Virus record (IMG/VR): IMGVR_UViG_3300010354_015568
Coordinates: 1-35,221 of that record
Strand: one strand, 5' to 3'
DNA length: 35,221 nt
Source: a virus
Shown: positions 1 to 30,724 of the stretch, piece after piece
Layout: every line of letters starts with the position of its first letter
Numbering within the stretch: position 1 is the first letter of the stretch
Translations under genes and position numbers: made by a program
The notes under the pieces: model-generated
What the model was told of the DNA's origin: nothing
Database searches by the model: none
The model's input: only the letters and a program-made list of their open reading frames with translations

Positions 1-78
1 ATAACGCTCGAGGTCATCAAAAATTTGATTGACTTCTGGTTTCATAGTCAAATACTTCTTAAGCCATTTTGCGGCCAT
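1..78 (-). CDS. conserved hypothetical phage protein, 5' end only
   Basis: Only the first 26 codons are in the window; the gene runs off the left edge. It starts MAAKWLKKYLTM at an ATG preceded by AAGGAGATAACA, a strong Shine-Dalgarno (SD) sequence at normal spacing, so the start is well supported. It lies 10 nt downstream of the stop of the QueD-like gene and is probably in the same transcript. Similar N-termini occur, from memory, in small conserved proteins of T4-type marine phages, but I cannot give a function. Confidence 0.7.
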   Translation of the reverse strand, partial: MAAKWLKKYLTMKPEVNQIFDDLERY

Positions 79-7598: not shown

Positions 7599-10259
7599 TT
7601 ATTCAAAACTAAACAAGCTGTCAAAGGTTGTCTTGATATCAGTGTGCGAAGGAATATCCCACTCCAGTACTCCCAACAAGTTTTCTACTTTTTGGTCAAC
7701 AATAGTGCCTTCCATTTCACCGTCGTCAAATGGCAATTCACGAAACCAAGCAGGTAAATGACTTTCGTCTGTGGGATAACCGACACTGGTATAACCCAAA
7801 GGATTATCTCGAAGTTTACACACAATAGTTTTCATACCGTCCACAATTGACATGCTATAATTATCGCCATGCATTCTACGTAAATTGTTCCAGTTCATGG
7901 CAGCACGTACATGGCCTGGCATGTTTGCTTTACCTAGTCGCTCTTCCTCTTTGGTATATTTGGTCAAGTTGTTTACACGTTTAGGAGTACCTTTTTCCCA
8001 TGCTGGTCGGTCCTGGAACGCTAGTTTGAATTCACGCACACGATCATAAATTTCTTCACGTGGTGCGCCAGTCAGCACAGCGGTAAGTAGTTCGCTCAAG
8101 AAGTCCTGCACGACCTTGGGAGTGTCTGACCGCTTGAGATCAAGACCCATGGCCTTGACCTTACCGGGCTTGCCGTGTGTGTCTAATCTATGTCCTTCTA
8201 GATCATATATGAGAACAGCGTATCGTTTCTTCTTTATAAACAATCCCTTACTTGCAACAAGTTCGCGTCCACCTTTAATAAGTTCGCCCATTGCTCTAGG
8301 CACGTGACAAGCTCGCTCCATAAAGGCCGGGAAACTGGCGTTGACTTGGTCGGCAATTGAGTCATAGAGCTGGGCACAGATTTCTTTTGTCCATTCCATT
8401 CGACCGGATTCAACTTCCTCTCTAACTGCTGGCCAAGCTGTGAAATAACATGAATCAGTGTCGCCATAGATAATACTTTTACCGACATGGTCGTACTCTC
8501 CGAATACGCACTCATTGATATACGCATCCATGTGTCTAGCAATGATCCGTCCAGTGAGCGTAGTAGATTGACCAATCCTTTTGTCGAAAAATCTACAACC
8601 TGGATTGAGAATCGCTCCGTAGAGACTGTTAAGGTTAATTTTTTTGACAAGTTGTCGCTTGTCCCAGAATGCTTTGTCCTCATCGGTAGCGGCCTCTTTT
8701 TTCTTGGCTTGCAGTTCCTTGCGTTCTGCGTACCATCTTTCTAGTAGTCCAGGAACAACAGCCTTTTGTTCGTAACTGAAAATAGTTCCGTTAGCTGATA
8801 ACATCCACGGTTGATTGCTATCAAAGATCATGCGCCAGATGTCAGCGGCACTCATAACATCCGATCCGCCGGCTTCCCAGTCAACTGTGATCTCTGTGCC
8901 GGGTTCGGCATTCATTACAGCAGTATATTCAAGACTACCAAACATGTTTTCCCAGGCGTCTGCAAAACTACTGCCCGAATTCATTTTTTCTTGAATATAC
9001 CTATCGGTCATTATCGGCCGGAGTTGGCCGACGATTGACTCTTGTGCCATGTTAAGAGCGCGGATTGCTGACGGGTAGAGGCTGTTGATGTCGATTGCGC
9101 CGATCCAGTCGTGCATGCCTTTCTTGGGGAAAGCAACATAGGCACCTGCTGCTTGTGTGTCACCTTGATCATCTCTTCCTTTCCTATTAGGTACAACCAT
9201 ACCTCGTTGATGTGCTTCGTTGATAATTGCTTGCTCAGTAACTGCTACAGCTCCCATTGTGGTTGGAAGCAATACTGTATTATCATGTGCTAGTTCATTG
9301 GCTAGATCTAGGAAACGCAGTTTCTTGTCTAGTTTGGCCACAAGCATGGTATCCTGCCTGTTGTAGTCAATGAACTTGGGAAAGTCTTTGTTGTATAGTT
9401 GATCTAGTGTGCCTTCGTATTGTGTTTTACGCTCATCTAGTTCATATTCGCCAATGGCATCCAAACTATAGCTGTGCCGCTCTTCATAAGTGTATTTTCG
9501 ATACAGTTGCATATAGTCCATATGCACACGACCAATCAAGTCAAAGGTCAAGTTCTCTGCACCAAAACGTTCAAATGTTCTTTGTTTAGGTAGTTGTCCC
9601 CAAAGACAAAATCTACGTGTGTCATCTTTGTTGAGTACTCGAGTTATACGCATGACCATGTATGGAATATCAAAGCCTTCTGAGTTCCATCCGCTTAGTA
9701 TATCGGCATCATCGATGATATCTAGGAAAGTGTTAAGTAGATCTTCTTCACGCTCAAACAAGAAACAGTTGTCGTACTTGGCGCAAATCTCTTCGGCAGT
9801 TGCCCAACTATAACTTTTAGGTGGTACAACCAATGTAACTAGTTTGTCCATCCAGTCAAGATAAACTGATATGGCAGTAATAGGATTGAACGGATCTTCG
9901 GGCCGACTAAAACCTCTTACTGGATCAAAGTCGACCTCAATATCAAAAAATGCAGTTTGTAGCTTGGGGGATTCTGATCCTAGATAGTGTTCTTCAAGGC
10001 ATCGGAATACCGGATTGATATCTGATTCCCAAAGACGCTTGTTGCTATTAATACGTATTTCTTTTTGATATTCCTTTTGTGAACGTGACGAAAATCTGCT
10101 AACAGGAGTTCCGTACACAGTACGAAATTTACCACGCGGGTCGTCGTAGTAAAAGACATAGTTGGCTGGGTATTCTCGATATACTCTCTCACCATTTATT
10201 CTTTCAACTATGTGAATACGGTCTGATCCGCGATCATAAAGTGCGTCAACATAACTCAT
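7599..10259 (-). CDS. family B DNA polymerase (T4 gp43-like)
   Basis: 886 aa, close to T4 gp43 (898). The 3'-5' exonuclease motifs are intact: FDIE (D106, E108), WNSEGFD (191-197) and YNRQD (299-303). Polymerase motif A is DINSLYPS from D390, motif B has K540 and NSLYG (544-548), and motif C is YGDTDS (598-603), so both activities should be present. The last residues, TTFDSLFSFE, resemble the C-terminal clamp-binding peptide of T4-type polymerases. It replicates the phage genome with the clamp encoded two genes downstream. It starts 6 nt after the stop of rSAM 3, so it is probably co-transcribed with that gene. Confidence 0.97.
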   Translation of the reverse strand: MSYVDALYDRGSDRIHIVERINGERVYREYPANYVFYYDDPRGKFRTVYGTPVSRFSSRSQKEYQKEIRINSNKRLWESDINPVFRCLEEHYLGSESPKLQTAFFDIEVDFDPVRGFSRPEDPFNPITAISVYLDWMDKLVTLVVPPKSYSWATAEEICAKYDNCFLFEREEDLLNTFLDIIDDADILSGWNSEGFDIPYMVMRITRVLNKDDTRRFCLWGQLPKQRTFERFGAENLTFDLIGRVHMDYMQLYRKYTYEERHSYSLDAIGEYELDERKTQYEGTLDQLYNKDFPKFIDYNRQDTMLVAKLDKKLRFLDLANELAHDNTVLLPTTMGAVAVTEQAIINEAHQRGMVVPNRKGRDDQGDTQAAGAYVAFPKKGMHDWIGAIDINSLYPSAIRALNMAQESIVGQLRPIMTDRYIQEKMNSGSSFADAWENMFGSLEYTAVMNAEPGTEITVDWEAGGSDVMSAADIWRMIFDSNQPWMLSANGTIFSYEQKAVVPGLLERWYAERKELQAKKKEAATDEDKAFWDKRQLVKKINLNSLYGAILNPGCRFFDKRIGQSTTLTGRIIARHMDAYINECVFGEYDHVGKSIIYGDTDSCYFTAWPAVREEVESGRMEWTKEICAQLYDSIADQVNASFPAFMERACHVPRAMGELIKGGRELVASKGLFIKKKRYAVLIYDLEGHRLDTHGKPGKVKAMGLDLKRSDTPKVVQDFLSELLTAVLTGAPREEIYDRVREFKLAFQDRPAWEKGTPKRVNNLTKYTKEEERLGKANMPGHVRAAMNWNNLRRMHGDNYSMSIVDGMKTIVCKLRDNPLGYTSVGYPTDESHLPAWFRELPFDDGEMEGTIVDQKVENLLGVLEWDIPSHTDIKTTFDSLFSFE

Positions 10260-10265
10260 GCTTAA

Positions 10266-11549
10266 TTATACAGTGTCCTTGTAATAAATGCTATAGATTT
10301 TTTTGATATCCATATCCGGATGAAACTTTTGTAACTGTTCTAACTGATAGTGTATAGCTTCATAATCTGTACTAAATTTGGTTGTCTCTATGGTGTAAAT
10401 TAATTTATCGAAAGCTGTTTGATATTTTTTAGGAACAAGTAAAGAAATATTTTTTGTATCATCTAAAATATTTTTTGCTTGCGCCGACGGTATAAGTGAT
10501 ATACTAAAGTTGTCATTTTGTTCGATCACAGGCATAAAACTAATTGTAAAATCTTTGTTGGAATATCGATCAATTAGATATTTCCAAAAACTGCCAATAT
10601 GATGTAAGTTAAGACTAGTAACAACTGAATGGACGTTTAGATTTGTAAATTTTGTTTTTTTCCTGGTCTGCGCCCAGTCCATTAATTTGTCTACGTTTTT
10701 TTGTATTTGATTCCAATTTGATGGAGTACGCTGAAGGTAGGCTATTTCATCCATGCCATCTAAACTCAAGTTCATTCCTGTACGATTAAATTGATCTAAT
10801 AAATTTATAAGCCTTTGATTAATGTTGGTACAATTTGTGCTTATCCATGGATATAATTTATCATGATAATTTAAATCTATCATGTGCTGTAGAAAATCAA
10901 ATGTGCCTTCTATTATGGTAGGTTCTCCACCGATTAAAAAAATAGAACGAATATCATCAGAATAATCTTTAAGAATCGAATTTAACGGATTAGTGTTAGG
11001 CCAATCATAAGTTTTGTTAAAATGTTTTTCTTCAACACTATTCGGCTGATAATCTTTAGAAAATTTTATTTCATTAAAATTAGAAACTCCCTTATTAGAG
11101 TAAAATTTAGACCACGACGTACTATATTGTGGAGTACACATTTTACAACTAAGATTACAAAGATTTCCCGACATGATTTGAAAATCAAAAGGATAATCAT
11201 CTAGGCATCCGTTATTGTTTTTAGCAAATTCAACTCTGTCAGAAATTGTATTAATGGGGATTCTATCTAAGAAATCAATACGCATACTAGTGCCTTTAGT
11301 ATGGTCTTCACTTTCTCTTTCCCAACAATATTGACAAGCTTCCGGAGTTTCTCCGTTGATTAATTCTAATCTTAGTTTTCTAATAGATTCACTATTCCAG
11401 GCATCCTTTAGTGTATCTTGATTAACATTGTATGTTTCGTTATCTGATCTTTTATTAGAATCTGGCCGCGCAGCACAACAGAATCTTATTTCGCCATTAG
11501 GCTGTACGTGTTGATGACTAAATGGTAAAGGGCAAAGTGTTTGACTCAT
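10266..11549 (-). CDS. radical SAM protein 3, N-terminal SPASM/twitch-like cluster domain
   Basis: 427 aa from ATG 11549. A longer in-frame reading to 11729 exists but would overlap the whole membrane-protein gene; the chosen ATG overlaps that gene's stop as ATGA and gives the usual MSQTLCPLPF start. Auxiliary Cys: C6, C24-C25 (after QPNGEIRF) and CQYC (72-75). rSAM triad: CNLSCKMC (C131, C135, C138). GGEP at 205-208. The sequence LNLSLDGMDEIAYLQR is the expected later strand of the barrel. It lacks a clear copy of the FP-x-Y tail seen in other members. Located directly upstream of the DNA polymerase gene. Confidence 0.85.
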   Translation of the reverse strand: MSQTLCPLPFSHQHVQPNGEIRFCCAARPDSNKRSDNETYNVNQDTLKDAWNSESIRKLRLELINGETPEACQYCWERESEDHTKGTSMRIDFLDRIPINTISDRVEFAKNNNGCLDDYPFDFQIMSGNLCNLSCKMCTPQYSTSWSKFYSNKGVSNFNEIKFSKDYQPNSVEEKHFNKTYDWPNTNPLNSILKDYSDDIRSIFLIGGEPTIIEGTFDFLQHMIDLNYHDKLYPWISTNCTNINQRLINLLDQFNRTGMNLSLDGMDEIAYLQRTPSNWNQIQKNVDKLMDWAQTRKKTKFTNLNVHSVVTSLNLHHIGSFWKYLIDRYSNKDFTISFMPVIEQNDNFSISLIPSAQAKNILDDTKNISLLVPKKYQTAFDKLIYTIETTKFSTDYEAIHYQLEQLQKFHPDMDIKKIYSIYYKDTV

Positions 11550-11833
11550 ACAAGTAATCTGATTAATCCTATAAAATCTATGCCAGTGATTAAAAGATAA
11601 TTCAATAGCATACCAAAACTTTTCCTGGTCCATGCGGCCCAAGAATACAATAAACAACCACCTATCCAAAACGGATATAACCAAAACAAAGGAGGGTTTG
11701 GAACAGTGAGAGCAAAAGTTAACGCACACCCAACACTACAAGCCCATGCAAGTATTTCTATAAAAAATCTTGTTTTATTACTATGCCAATCTTCGGCTAC
11801 CCAATCAAATATTTTTACTATTGTATCATACAT
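11546..11833 (-). CDS. small integral membrane protein, about three TM helices
   Basis: 95 aa. After an amphipathic start (MYDTIVKIFDWVAEDW) there are three hydrophobic stretches: about residues 23-42 (FFIEILAWACSVGCALTFA), 48-66 and 73-93, with a positively charged TRK loop. The pattern suggests an inner-membrane protein; from memory, similar proteins occur in other marine T4-type phages, without function. It overlaps the end of rSAM 4 by 16 nt and the start of rSAM 3 as ATGA, so it is translated between the two rSAM genes. Confidence 0.75.
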   Translation of the reverse strand: MYDTIVKIFDWVAEDWHSNKTRFFIEILAWACSVGCALTFALTVPNPPLFWLYPFWIGGCLLYSWAAWTRKSFGMLLNYLLITGIDFIGLIRLLV

Positions 11834-12993
11834 ATTTTTATTAATTCATACATTTCGGGAAATGTTTCTTGGAATTTTTGATCTCTATTTTTATCAACCT
11901 TATCAGTTTCTTCTATAAAATTTTTAATTAATTCTTTATTTTCCATTTCTAGTTCTAAGAATTCTATAATTGCTGTTTTAAGATTATGCTGTAAATTTTT
12001 GTTTAAAAAATTTTTTACATAAATTTTACAATCAGACGGTAAAGCACGTATGTTCATAAACTCCGGATTATGTAACATATTAAAACTGCAATTAATATTA
12101 CGACTTTTGAAAAAATTGAAAATTTTTGGTAATTCTAAAATATTGTAAATGCTTACTGTTACCGTAACCATTATTTGAATATTGTCATGCTCTACACTTA
12201 GTTTTTTGTACCGATGAATAGTATCTAGTACATATTCAAACTTTGCAGGATATCGCAAGTAGTCAAATTGTTCATTTATGCCATCTACACTAATATCCAA
12301 ATTAACTTTTTTAAACTTTGGAAATAACTCAATGAAATCATTTCTCCAAACAGTTCCGTTGGTGTTTATATGTATTGATTGATCAACGGAAAATTTTTTA
12401 TCTACTGCATTTTTGAGTGTATCTATTAATGGCGTTACCAGTAACGGCTCAGCTCCATACAGATCCCAATATAAAATATTTTTGTTCCAGTCATTTATTT
12501 CTTTCCAAATTGGATTGTCAGTAGCATAACTATTCTTTGTTGTTTGAAATTTTTTTAAATATTTTTCATAATCTATATCAGAATAGTTTATTTGGTAGTC
12601 ATCTTTGTACCATCCACTGCTTACACTAGAATCGCAGTGACGGCAGCTTAAGTTACAAACGTTTCCTGGTTTAAGTATCAATGCTCTTGGTTGGTCGAGT
12701 AAAGGAACTAAATGACCAAGATTTTTGTTATGAATTTGACGCATACTAGGAAAGCCTGCTTCCTCTTTTATCCAGCAATCCAAACAGTTATCATGCTTGA
12801 TATTATTTCTTAATGCATCAATTATTTCTACTCTTGTAGGACTATTCCAAGCATCATTTAACGAATAAGTATCCAAAGTTATTGTTTTGTCGTTTTTGTC
12901 GACAAACATTTTTCTGCTGCCATTACAAACACTGACATGGCCTCCATTATGAAGACTTAAACTTGTTTCTGCAAGGATACAGCCAGTATTCAT
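11818..12993 (-). CDS. radical SAM protein 4, variant N-terminal cluster domain
   Basis: 391 aa. The rSAM triad is CNLSCRHC (C113, C117, C120). The SAM-contact motif is GAEP (G180-A181-E182) rather than GGEP. The N-terminal module is altered: C5, a single C23 instead of a CC pair, and CLDC (70-73), leaving exactly four Cys for an auxiliary cluster. The tail has the array motif (DKNRDQKFQETFPEMY). Its ATG shares TAATG with the stop of the DsbA-like gene at 12993, so it is tightly coupled to that gene and probably driven from the promoter at 13275-13303. Confidence 0.83.
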   Translation of the reverse strand: MNTGCILAETSLSLHNGGHVSVCNGSRKMFVDKNDKTITLDTYSLNDAWNSPTRVEIIDALRNNIKHDNCLDCWIKEEAGFPSMRQIHNKNLGHLVPLLDQPRALILKPGNVCNLSCRHCDSSVSSGWYKDDYQINYSDIDYEKYLKKFQTTKNSYATDNPIWKEINDWNKNILYWDLYGAEPLLVTPLIDTLKNAVDKKFSVDQSIHINTNGTVWRNDFIELFPKFKKVNLDISVDGINEQFDYLRYPAKFEYVLDTIHRYKKLSVEHDNIQIMVTVTVSIYNILELPKIFNFFKSRNINCSFNMLHNPEFMNIRALPSDCKIYVKNFLNKNLQHNLKTAIIEFLELEMENKELIKNFIEETDKVDKNRDQKFQETFPEMYELIKICMIQ

Positions 12994-26809: not shown

Positions 26810-27532
26810 TTATTTATTATCCAGGCATACCAGCTCGGAAACTTCTCTAATCAAATCTGGATGTATTAGAGTAAGGAATGTTGCAACATGACGATCGTTT
26901 GTAAAAAAATTGGTGCCCCAGATCCAGTCATAAGGCTTACTTAAACTTTCTCTAGCATGATCGCTCATTCGAACCAAATCGCCCAGACTATTCAAATATG
27001 CCAACACCTGATGTCTTACATCTGTATCAAATTGCTTTTCTCTCAGCCAAACACGATACCGATATTTTGGTGGCTTTTTGACCAGAACAACATGATTGTT
27101 TAATATTGCTTTGATTTCTTCGTTGGCCGGGCCAGTAATAGCGGTCAAATTTTGTCTGTGATCCGGATCAATTGACTTGGCCACACTCTGTAAAACCAAT
27201 TCATCTGTTGCATAAACTGATATTTTTGGTTCTTCGGTTCTAATCTTAACATCGGGATATTCATAATATAAATCTTTTAAACTATGCAAAAACCCAATGT
27301 CGGCTTCCTGTAAATATTCAGCCAGCTGCTTGTTCCACCAAGATCCTTGGCGCCTATAATCTCTAACCCAATTTCTACGCCGTTCGATATCATATGAAAC
27401 ATTGTCACAGCGAATACTTTTACAGCCAGGGGCCATAATATCCAATCTAAAATAATATTCGTTGTAAAACTGTTTTGTTGATTCTTGAATATTAATACTG
27501 GGCGACAGGTTCTTCCAGAACAATGTATCCAT
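26810..27532 (-). CDS. hypothetical protein overlapping clpA-like gene
   Basis: 240 aa, soluble, with many Arg, Tyr and Trp residues: RRNWVRDYRRQGSWWNKQ, a central strand KISVYATDELVLQSV, and KKPPKYRYRVWLREKQF. The last part (PYDWIWGTNFFTNDRHVATF) looks like a folded domain. The start lies 41 nt inside the ClpA-like gene in another frame, a long overlap for this genome; a shorter product from Met33 is possible. No family recognised. Its position after the chaperone genes might reflect a partner role. Confidence 0.6.
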   Translation of the reverse strand: MDTLFWKNLSPSINIQESTKQFYNEYYFRLDIMAPGCKSIRCDNVSYDIERRRNWVRDYRRQGSWWNKQLAEYLQEADIGFLHSLKDLYYEYPDVKIRTEEPKISVYATDELVLQSVAKSIDPDHRQNLTAITGPANEEIKAILNNHVVLVKKPPKYRYRVWLREKQFDTDVRHQVLAYLNSLGDLVRMSDHARESLSKPYDWIWGTNFFTNDRHVATFLTLIHPDLIREVSELVCLDNK

Positions 27533-29783
27533 TTTGGTCTATTCTATGTTTGAAGTCGGCTGATACCGGTTGAAATACAAATTTGTTATCTGCATAATCG
27601 ATTACTATGATAGCATTGGGCATAATAGCTTCGAATAAAATCTTTTTACTCAATGGTACCTTTATCAACTCATTAATTTTTCTTTGCAAGGGTCTAGCAC
27701 CCATTTTACTGTCAAAGCCATTTGACACCAATTCATCTACAGCTTGTTCAGTTAGCCGCACACGTAATTGTTTATCCAACAGTAGTTCATTGAGTTCGTT
27801 AATAAACTTGTTGACAATCTTGCGCATACTGAGTTGATCGAGTTTACTAAACTTGACTACACCATCCAATCTATTTCTAAATTCTGGCTTAAAGAAGTCT
27901 TTGACAGCTCGGTCATCTTCGCCATCACGTTCCAGTGTAGTAGTAAATCCAATTGTGTTCCGATCGTTGTCTGCTGCACCAAGATTAGATGTTAAAATAA
28001 TTATTGCATTTCTGCAATCGGCTTTTTTACCATTACTGCTAGCGACTGTACCCTCATCCATCATTTGTAGCAGTACATTGCTCACATCTGGATGTGCCTT
28101 TTCGATTTCATCCATAAGGATGATGCAGTTGGGATTCTTTTCAATGTCGGATATTAACAATCCACCACCCAAATTACCATCGTCGTAGCCCACATAACCC
28201 GGCGGAGCACCAATCAATTTTGCCACAGTGTGACGTTCTTGGTATTCACTCATGTCGTATCTCAACAGCTTCATACCAAGAGTTTCGGCCAGCAGTTTTG
28301 CCAATTCAGTTTTACCTGTACCAGTGGGACCTAGGAACAAGAAATTACCAATTGGTTTATTGATTGATTTCAATCCGGCCTTACTTACATAAATTTTTTC
28401 TAATACAGTATCTACAGCACGATCTTGTCCATACAATCTATCTTTAATTTTGCGTTCTAAGCAATCTACATCTGTAGAACCCGAGTCAGATTGCATACCA
28501 ATTTGATCAACTGGAATTTTGGTAATTCTGCTAATTGCATTTACTATATCTCGCTTGCCAATTGACCATACTGTGTGTTTAATTTTATTCTTTGCACAGC
28601 AAGCATCAATCAGGTCAATTGCTTTATCGGGTAATTTTTTATCAGTCTGGTACCTCACTGACAAATCTACCGCTGCTTCAATGGCATCGTCGTGAATGGT
28701 ACCATCATGAAACTCTTCGAAATGAAATCTTAAACCACGTAAAATTTCTTTAGCAATCTCGGGCGTGGGTTCGTCGATCGTAACACGCTGGAATCTACGC
28801 ATTAATGCTCGATCCTTTTCAAAGCTTTGTGTATACTCTTCCCACGTTGTACTAGCTAATACTTTAATTTTGCCCTTTGATAGTGCGGGCTTGATCATAT
28901 TGGCCAAATCAACACTGCTTTGACTACCGGCTCCTGCACCTCGCATTTGGTGTGCTTCATCAATAAACAAAATTGTTTTTTCTTTAGAATTAAGTGCATT
29001 GATTATTTCATGTATTTTTTCTTCAAAATCTCCGCGATATTTGCTACCTGCCAGTAAACTACCAATGTCTAAATTGTACACAGTATAATTTTTCAAATAC
29101 TCGGGCACGTTGTCGTTAACAATTTCCAAGGCCAATCCCTCGGCAATGGCAGTCTTGCCCACTCCAGGATCGCCGATCATTAAAACATTACATTTATTTC
29201 TTCTTGCCAAAATTTCTATTATGTCGTTGGTTTCGCTTTCTCTCCCAATAACAGGATCAATCTTGTTATCACTTGCAAGCTTATTCAAATTGGTACAATA
29301 ATGTTCCAATATTTTATCAGCTTGAGCAGAATTTACAATAGATTTATTTGCTTCTGTTTTGTAAAACTTATTATACTGTTCTATTATTTTTCCTCGATCA
29401 AGTTGATACTTGACTATGAAATAATGAGCATAACTATTTGTTTCAGAATTGATGCTTAGAAATAAATCCATAACTTGCACATGAGTTCTTCCGCTAAACA
29501 AAACCTGTGTAAAAGCTCTGTTAAACGTTCTTTCTAGTGCGTGTGTTTTCTTTGGTTCAACATTGTCTGCTTCAAGGTAAGTTTGATTTTCTATATACGA
29601 AGAAAGATCCGAATCAAGACCCTCGATATCTATACCAAAATTAACCAAGAACTCTCTAAACACACTGAACCTAATCATTGAAAGAAATACATGTTCTAAT
29701 GTAACGTATTCATGATTATAATTTTTGGCTATGTCGATAGCGTCAGAGACAATTAGATCAATTTCTGGATTGGTTTGTAACAT
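27492..29783 (-). CDS. ClpA-like AAA+ protein unfoldase
   Basis: 763 aa, the size of ClpA (758), not ClpB (no long coiled-coil insert between the AAA modules). An N-terminal Clp repeat domain covers about residues 1-145. AAA module 1 has GDPGVGKT (204-211) and ILFIDEAH; module 2 has GPTGTGKT (485-492), the pore loop GYVG and ILMDEIEKAHPDV. A surface loop carries IGF at 611-613, in the place of the ClpP-docking IGL loop of ClpA. It could therefore dock on host ClpP and direct degradation of chosen proteins. No phage ClpP is in the window. It follows DnaJ by 8 nt. Confidence 0.9.
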   Translation of the reverse strand: MLQTNPEIDLIVSDAIDIAKNYNHEYVTLEHVFLSMIRFSVFREFLVNFGIDIEGLDSDLSSYIENQTYLEADNVEPKKTHALERTFNRAFTQVLFSGRTHVQVMDLFLSINSETNSYAHYFIVKYQLDRGKIIEQYNKFYKTEANKSIVNSAQADKILEHYCTNLNKLASDNKIDPVIGRESETNDIIEILARRNKCNVLMIGDPGVGKTAIAEGLALEIVNDNVPEYLKNYTVYNLDIGSLLAGSKYRGDFEEKIHEIINALNSKEKTILFIDEAHQMRGAGAGSQSSVDLANMIKPALSKGKIKVLASTTWEEYTQSFEKDRALMRRFQRVTIDEPTPEIAKEILRGLRFHFEEFHDGTIHDDAIEAAVDLSVRYQTDKKLPDKAIDLIDACCAKNKIKHTVWSIGKRDIVNAISRITKIPVDQIGMQSDSGSTDVDCLERKIKDRLYGQDRAVDTVLEKIYVSKAGLKSINKPIGNFLFLGPTGTGKTELAKLLAETLGMKLLRYDMSEYQERHTVAKLIGAPPGYVGYDDGNLGGGLLISDIEKNPNCIILMDEIEKAHPDVSNVLLQMMDEGTVASSNGKKADCRNAIIILTSNLGAADNDRNTIGFTTTLERDGEDDRAVKDFFKPEFRNRLDGVVKFSKLDQLSMRKIVNKFINELNELLLDKQLRVRLTEQAVDELVSNGFDSKMGARPLQRKINELIKVPLSKKILFEAIMPNAIIVIDYADNKFVFQPVSADFKHRIDQNGYIVLEEPVAQY

Positions 29784-29788
29784 AAAAA

Positions 29789-29796
29789 TATTTATT
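29789..29796 (-). promoter_or_regulatory. late-promoter-like AATAAATA box before the ClpA-like gene
   Basis: Minus strand AATAAATA, then TTTTT and ATG. It covers the DnaJ stop codon. The T4 spacing would place +1 on the A of ATG 29783. No SD is present, so either leaderless initiation or coupling to DnaJ translation is required. Confidence 0.3.
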
Positions 29797-30658
29797 GAAT
29801 ATGAAAGAGATTTTTAAGTTCGTCAATTTGATGAGTGCTTAAATTAGTTGGTACATTAATTTTTACACACACAATCAAATGACCCCTACTGCTTTGATTC
29901 ATTACATAAAGGCCCTGATTGTGTATTCTCAGTTTGCTGTCAGGTTGTATGCCTGCAGGAATAGTCAAATCAAAAATTTTACCATCTAGGCCTTCTATTG
30001 CTATTGTAGCACCTATCATTGCACTAATGCAATCAATTTCTATTGTTTTGATTAGATCATAATTGTCAACTTGAAATCGTGGATCGCCTTCGACTTGTAT
30101 TTTAACATACAAATCACCACGTGGCAAGCTGTTAAAAAAGTTGTCTCCCAAGTTGGGAAATTTTATTGTACTGTTGGGTCTTACTCCGCGAGGAATCTGT
30201 ACATTAACAGGATAACGTTCTCCATTGGTATTTTGTACTCCAATTGTTTTTTCTTGAGATTCTAGTGTGCTTGCCAATGAAACTGTAATGGCCACTTGAA
30301 TATCTTTGTTTTTTCTTGCCTGACGAAATGGACTAAATGGATCACCGTGACCGGCAAATCCTGGCCCGAAACTAAATCCAAAGTTTCTAAGCATATCTTC
30401 CATTTCATGCGGCATACCACTGCCCATATCATGGCCGTTTACTGAAAAACGGAATCCTCCCATGCCACGACGTTCGGCGTCATATTGAGCTCGTCGATTA
30501 TCATCGCTTAGAATATCGTAGGCAGATTGTATTTGTTGGAATCGATTTGTGTCACCGCCTTTGTCTGGGTGATGTTGATTGGCCAATTTACGATAGGCCT
30601 TTTTGATCTCATCTGCGTTTGCGTTTTCAGCAACACCTAAAGTATCATAATGCGTCAT
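29792..30658 (-). CDS. DnaJ/CbpA-type J-domain co-chaperone
   Basis: 288 aa. J domain at residues 1-60 with HPD at 30-32 and the KKAYRKLANQHHPDKGGD helix; a Gly/Phe-rich linker (GMGGFRFSVNG...FSFGPGFAGHGDPF) to about 110; then two C-terminal beta domains (VTVSL-type ITVSLASTLESQEK, RGDLYVKIQVEGDPRF). No CxxCxGxG zinc finger, so it is CbpA-like rather than full DnaJ. It would stimulate host DnaK. The gene starts a unit: UUCG terminator upstream, consensus promoter at 30665-30693, and ATG exactly at the predicted +1. Confidence 0.92.
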   Translation of the reverse strand: MTHYDTLGVAENANADEIKKAYRKLANQHHPDKGGDTNRFQQIQSAYDILSDDNRRAQYDAERRGMGGFRFSVNGHDMGSGMPHEMEDMLRNFGFSFGPGFAGHGDPFSPFRQARKNKDIQVAITVSLASTLESQEKTIGVQNTNGERYPVNVQIPRGVRPNSTIKFPNLGDNFFNSLPRGDLYVKIQVEGDPRFQVDNYDLIKTIEIDCISAMIGATIAIEGLDGKIFDLTIPAGIQPDSKLRIHNQGLYVMNQSSRGHLIVCVKINVPTNLSTHQIDELKNLFHIQ

Positions 30659-30664
30659 AGTAAT

Positions 30665-30693
30665 ATTATATATTCTCTATCTTGGGTTGTCAA
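30665..30693 (-). promoter_or_regulatory. perfect-consensus sigma70 promoter for dnaJ
   Basis: Minus strand TTGACA (30688-30693), exactly 17 nt, TATAAT (30665-30670): both hexamers match the consensus in full. Six nt (ATTACT) separate the -10 box from the ATG, so the expected transcription start is the A of the start codon and the transcript would have no leader. There is no SD. Likely expressed early by host RNA polymerase. Confidence 0.88.
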
Positions 30694-30704
30694 TACAAAT
30701 GACG

Positions 30705-30724
30705 AGAGCCCACGAATGGGCTCT
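30705..30724 (-). terminator. UUCG-loop hairpin terminator after the lysis block
   Basis: Perfect 8-bp stem AGAGCCCA/TGGGCTCT around a tetraloop that reads TTCG on the minus strand. UUCG loops are common in T4 terminators. The U-tract after it is poor (CGTCATTTGTATTG). It lies between the small secreted-protein gene (stop 30745) and the dnaJ promoter, which is where a unit boundary is expected. Confidence 0.75.

Follow-up and report, generated by a model that had tools for sequence, protein, structure and literature searches.

The window, by which we mean the whole stretch of viral DNA analysed here (35,221 nucleotides), carries a dnaJ-like gene on its minus strand. Its product is 288 aa long and contains a J domain (Pfam DnaJ, residues 2-60) followed by DnaJ_C. 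A gene for a ClpA-like AAA+ ATPase begins 8 nt after dnaJ and, judging from this spacing, is probably co-transcribed with it. Immediately ahead of dnaJ, from 30693 to 30656 on the minus strand, lies the sequence TTGACA-ACCCAAGATAGAGAATA-TATAAT-ATTACT-ATG. The features of the locus, and one candidate elsewhere in the window, are as follows.

30705-30724, minus strand: hairpin of a putative terminator fused to the promoter, with a weak U-tract in the window copy (folding energy, relatives)
30688-30693, minus strand: -35 hexamer TTGACA (sequence; kept in relatives)
30665-30670, minus strand: -10 hexamer TATAAT, 17 nt from the -35 (sequence; kept in relatives)
30659-30664, minus strand: ATTACT, the 6 nt from the -10 to the ATG (length conserved, sequence not)
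30656-30658, minus strand: ATG start codon, its A the predicted +1 (spacing; pyrimidine-A signature of leadered promoters at the same position)
29792-30658, minus strand: dnaJ-like gene, 288 aa, J domain and DnaJ_C (ORF, Pfam domains)
27492-29783, minus strand: gene for a ClpA-like AAA+ ATPase, starting 8 nt beyond dnaJ (ORF, domain)
10260-10270, minus strand: weaker second leaderless candidate, a family B DNA polymerase gene with TATAAT 5 nt ahead of its ATG and a poor -35

The dnaJ promoter and its start codon

The original prediction described a consensus promoter of the form TTGACA-17-TATAAT-6-ATG before dnaJ and the lack of a Shine-Dalgarno (SD) sequence, and both descriptions are confirmed on the minus strand. 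All 12 hexamer bases equal the sigma70 consensus and the spacer is 17 nt long. A perfect TTGACA-17-TATAAT occurs once in the whole window, where 0.04 sites are expected (such a site was seen in 4 of 100 shuffles), and the dnaJ site is the sole perfect match within 25-35 kb. The chance that a perfect promoter would also sit 6 nt before a gene start is about 1.5e-5, a rough figure from base composition. No SD-like sequence is present in the 20 nt 5' of the ATG.

The ATG at 30658 is the earliest possible start of dnaJ when ATG, GTG and TTG are considered. On its 5' side a stop is reached after just 6 further open codons, none of which is a start codon. Because the J domain begins at residue 2, an internal start would cut into the domain. 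Standard promoter spacing, with +1 seven nt after the -10, would make the A of the ATG the first transcribed nucleotide.

Relatives were gathered from IMG/VR via dnaJ and via clpA, which gave 104 distinct dnaJ upstream regions (88 once near-copies were removed) with predicted start codons. In 47 of the 88 regions the best promoter and the dnaJ ATG are 5-7 nt apart (shuffles: mean 0.77, maximum 5), and in 39 the distance is exactly 6 nt. Spacings of 5 and 7-9 nt are also present in some relatives, about 40% are leadered or lack a recognisable promoter, and a single GTG start (L131) was found among the promoter-adjoining dnaJ genes. The 35 regions with a spacing of 6 nt and a 17-nt spacer conserve TTGAC (-35 to -31), T at -14 and TATAAT (-12 to -7), with variation in the spacer and at most of the six positions ahead of the ATG. 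Part of this hexamer conservation arises because promoter-bearing sequences were selected, and the distance peak is therefore the stronger evidence. Upstream of clpA, the neighbour of dnaJ and our control gene, no spacing peak was found.

The arrangement also follows the phylogeny of the gene. The leaderless label, defined as a promoter 5-9 nt from the ATG, needs 8 changes on a maximum-likelihood tree of dnaJ, compared with 34 in shuffles. The dnaJ of the window falls in a 13-row clade that is leaderless by this label throughout. Other clades retain the promoter, but at 20-44 nt from the ATG.

Two promoter classes in a jumbo-phage lineage

The phage of the window belongs to a large uncultured lineage of jumbo phages related to RaK2, 121Q, PA5oct and Atu_ph07. 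The scoring covered seven related virus records, of which five measure 289-374 kb and two about 140 kb, and recorded the distance from every TTGACN-16..18-TANNAT-like promoter to the first downstream ATG that opens at least 50 codons. The distances are bimodal. There are 42 cases at 5-7 nt (5, 36 and 1 at 5, 6 and 7 nt, respectively), none at 2-4 nt and three at 8-16 nt, followed by a second, broad class centred on 20-32 nt. An SD is present in 78 of the 98 promoters of the 15-39 nt bins and is lacking from the 5-7 nt class. When the -35 of the motif was reversed or complemented as a control, the same seven records gave no distance peak. All 36 cases at 6 nt use ATG as start codon, and none uses GTG, TTG or CTG. 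The leadered promoters carry an A at the position equivalent to the A of the leaderless ATG in 60% of cases and a pyrimidine before it in 70%, and this pyrimidine-A initiation signature corroborates a +1 on the A of the ATG.

The clearest case besides dnaJ is the 5'-3' exonuclease gene (Pfam 5_3_exonuc_N), which has the leaderless arrangement in 7 of 7 records (one with a distance of 5). Of the 46 distinct regions upstream of this gene (L210-L289), 42 show the 6-nt spacing. Its promoter takes the form TTGACN-17-TATWAT/TACTAT-6-ATG, and in many cases an extended TGC precedes the -10. A possible second leaderless gene within the window is that of the family B DNA polymerase (7599-10259); promoters lie 6 and 5 nt from the same DNA polymerase ATG in the relatives L189 and L180. 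Strong promoters in G001, G002, G006 and G007 are nearly all on one strand and have common spacer words (for example TTGACCAAAAATNCC and TTGACCCGAAATG), which suggests lineage-specific promoter families. Elsewhere in the window, radical-SAM-type proteins are encoded at 1811-2968 and 10266-11729 (-), and several other ORFs begin with similar cysteine-rich motifs.

Taken together, the distances and the recurrence on other genes point to leaderless messages as a regular minority class in these phages and not an oddity. A leaderless dnaJ had been expected to be unusual. That expectation holds against the cultured relatives and fails within the lineage of the window itself. RaK2, Sharanji/121Q, PA5oct, Atu_ph07 and Phosso have related ClpA and 5'-3' exonuclease genes, and in PA5oct, Atu_ph07 and Phosso dnaJ lies beside or near clp. 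The exonuclease family is common to PA5oct, RaK2, Sharanji, Munch, BF, Atu_ph07 and Phosso, and ClpA to most of them. In the upstream regions examined, the leaderless dnaJ promoter is absent from PA5oct, Atu_ph07 and Phosso, and none of the exonuclease genes of the cultured relatives is leaderless. PA5oct does have a few candidate leaderless sites elsewhere, at 12831, 158206 and 216211. Strict TATAAT promoters have an ATG at 5-7 nt in 33 of 120 cases from five uncultured records versus 14 of 204 from eight cultured ones (1 of 83 in RaK2 and Sharanji, the E. coli/Klebsiella relatives); these counts pool related genomes and take any ATG without a gene-start check, and the comparison is only indicative.

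The Moraphages, which are reported to infect mostly Bacteroidota, were considered as a candidate lineage; leaderless genes are unmentioned in the paper describing them (PMC12619734). A search for the host with the exonuclease found no match among bacterial genome contigs. ClpA found 36-43% matches only, mostly on Treponema/Spirochaetes and deltaproteobacterial MAG contigs, and these are too distant to name a host. The RegB profile PF10715, considered on the idea that leaderless mRNAs escape GGAG cleavage, matched 0 of 7 records, and the control genomes were also without a match. On one contig, IMGVR_UViG_3300032288_004815, the clp region is present twice, with the copies (L138 and L139) facing opposite ways, a doubling that is perhaps an assembly artefact.

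The hairpin fused to the dnaJ promoter

The terminator that had been placed upstream of dnaJ is borne out in part. A stable hairpin, AGAGCCCA-TTCG-TGGGCTCT, is present at 30724-30705 (-13.4 kcal/mol, z -3.5), but its U-tract is degraded in the window copy: the tail reads CGTCATTTGT, as against TTTTTGTTT or TTTTCATTT in close relatives. With the U-run broken, termination at this copy may be weak. A hairpin and T-run at the promoter are found in most dnaJ relatives (59 of 86 regions with at most 2 of 40 shuffles as good, in a tally whose promoterless class also counts regions without a hairpin).

The register of the hairpin slides relative to the promoter. It lies just upstream of the -35 in the group of the window, in other leaderless clades the -35 is within the 3' arm or the loop, and in the leadered dnaJ clades the loop encloses the -10. 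The stems vary among relatives yet covary, pairing within their own sequence: own-arm pairing exceeded swapped-arm pairing in 5000 of 5000 permutations in both classes. Where the hairpin encloses the -10, RNA derived from upstream would form the hairpin and should terminate, and RNA initiated at the promoter would be without its 5' arm. In one set of dnaJ upstream regions (L016-L053, L066 and L067) the promoter is nested in a long palindrome that resembles a terminator and has the -10 at its centre; a T-run and then a leader of 20-30 nt follow, many without an SD. A further group (L055-L059) has an operator-like palindrome, for example AGCACACTAACTGTGCT, between the -35 and the -10, about 13-30 nt before the dnaJ ATG.

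Proposed leaderless expression, its alternatives and known systems

Sequence comparison shows that selection keeps a near-consensus sigma70-type promoter of these phages at exactly the distance from dnaJ that puts +1 on the A of its ATG, and that a minority gene class throughout the lineage has this geometry too. RNA polymerase with a host-type sigma factor would make a leaderless dnaJ(-clpA) mRNA starting with 5'-AUG. Ribosomes would initiate on it directly, the 70S particle binding the 5'-terminal AUG without SD pairing. Kasugamycin blocks translation of SD-led messages and spares that of leaderless ones (PMC5230787). The hairpin carried on the same promoter in most relatives would halt transcripts from upstream genes, so that dnaJ would be expressed mainly from its own leaderless message. 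We hold this explanation as a whole, from the selected spacing through the leaderless message to the insulating hairpin, with high confidence. The predicted mRNA start on the A of the ATG is supported by the conserved 6-nt spacing, the recurrence on other genes, the ATG-only use and the +1 signature of leadered promoters.

One alternative is that the promoter adjoins the ATG by chance or through genome compaction and that dnaJ is translated from an upstream read-through mRNA. The upstream genes are indeed co-directional and the U-tract in the window copy is weak. However, the exact spacing is conserved across many diverged relatives and also at further genes, a read-through message would lack an SD, and hairpins sit at the promoter in most relatives; we regard this reading as very improbable. 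The comparisons also lend strong support to the original argument that dnaJ initiation would not depend on coupling to an upstream gene. Hardly more probable is a real promoter from which transcription starts 2-5 nt upstream, or a true start codon elsewhere, giving a very short leader. Transcription start selection can shift by 1-2 nt, and spacings of 5 and 7-9 nt do occur in some dnaJ relatives. Such slack fits poorly with a peak that is one base wide at 6 nt and restricted to ATG, and with a J domain that begins at residue 2.

It could also be that the inverted repeats over the promoter are repressor operators instead of terminators and that the promoter placement serves repression. Their overlap with the -35 or the -10 and the palindrome between the hexamers in L055-L059 favour this view, and operator use in the L055 group is possible. 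For most clades the operator reading was rejected: the stems differ widely while the pairing and the following T-run persist, which is expected of RNA terminators and not of the site of one protein. Although we judge it unlikely, it is a little less so than the other two, and it concerns the hairpin alone and is compatible with a leaderless mRNA.

Several known systems resemble the dnaJ arrangement. The PeSL (early-promoter/stem-loop) elements of T4-type phages are reportedly mobile regulatory cassettes in which a terminator stem-loop is joined to a host-type promoter. The dnaJ element has the same two parts, but it differs in a hairpin that overlaps the hexamers and in a promoter that adjoins the ATG. 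Among phages, the cI gene of lambda and the cI and cro genes of PY54 have leaderless mRNAs, the PY54 ones mapped by RACE (PMC4488713). They have a strong sigma70-type promoter directly before the ATG and an mRNA beginning with AUG, as predicted for dnaJ. Those are single regulatory genes of temperate phages, whereas the chaperone, replication nuclease and other genes described here form a class of a jumbo-phage lineage known from sequence only. The paper on phage AR9 notes that leaderless transcripts are frequent among phages (PMC5312081). Bacterial leaderless (TA-led) genes have been catalogued in silico by the presence of a -10-like signal some 10-12 nt ahead of the start codon (PMC3160421), and the genes reported here have a -10 equally near the start. 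They differ in belonging to phage genomes, in having a full -35 and -10, in the one-base-wide peak and in the separate SD-led class alongside.

A possible but doubtful extension is a lineage-wide scheme in which the same host-type promoters drive both SD-led genes and a dedicated leaderless class, to which dnaJ, the 5'-3' exonuclease and other genes belong and which during infection would be translated independently of SD-based initiation. Speculatively, the leaderless class could free its genes from the controls on SD-led initiation or give them different timing. It might, for example, remain active while canonical initiation is being remodelled or is under attack.

The experimentally shown leaderless mRNAs of phages that we found in the open-access literature are those of single repressor genes, and earlier reports elsewhere are possible. 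A leaderless class with deep conservation among jumbo phages would suit the question of why genes choose leaderless initiation, with a built-in control in the sister clades where the same dnaJ gene has a leader. The start-site and promoter rule could be applied in annotating many metagenomic phage contigs. The fused terminator, promoter and start codon would constitute a very compact expression unit.
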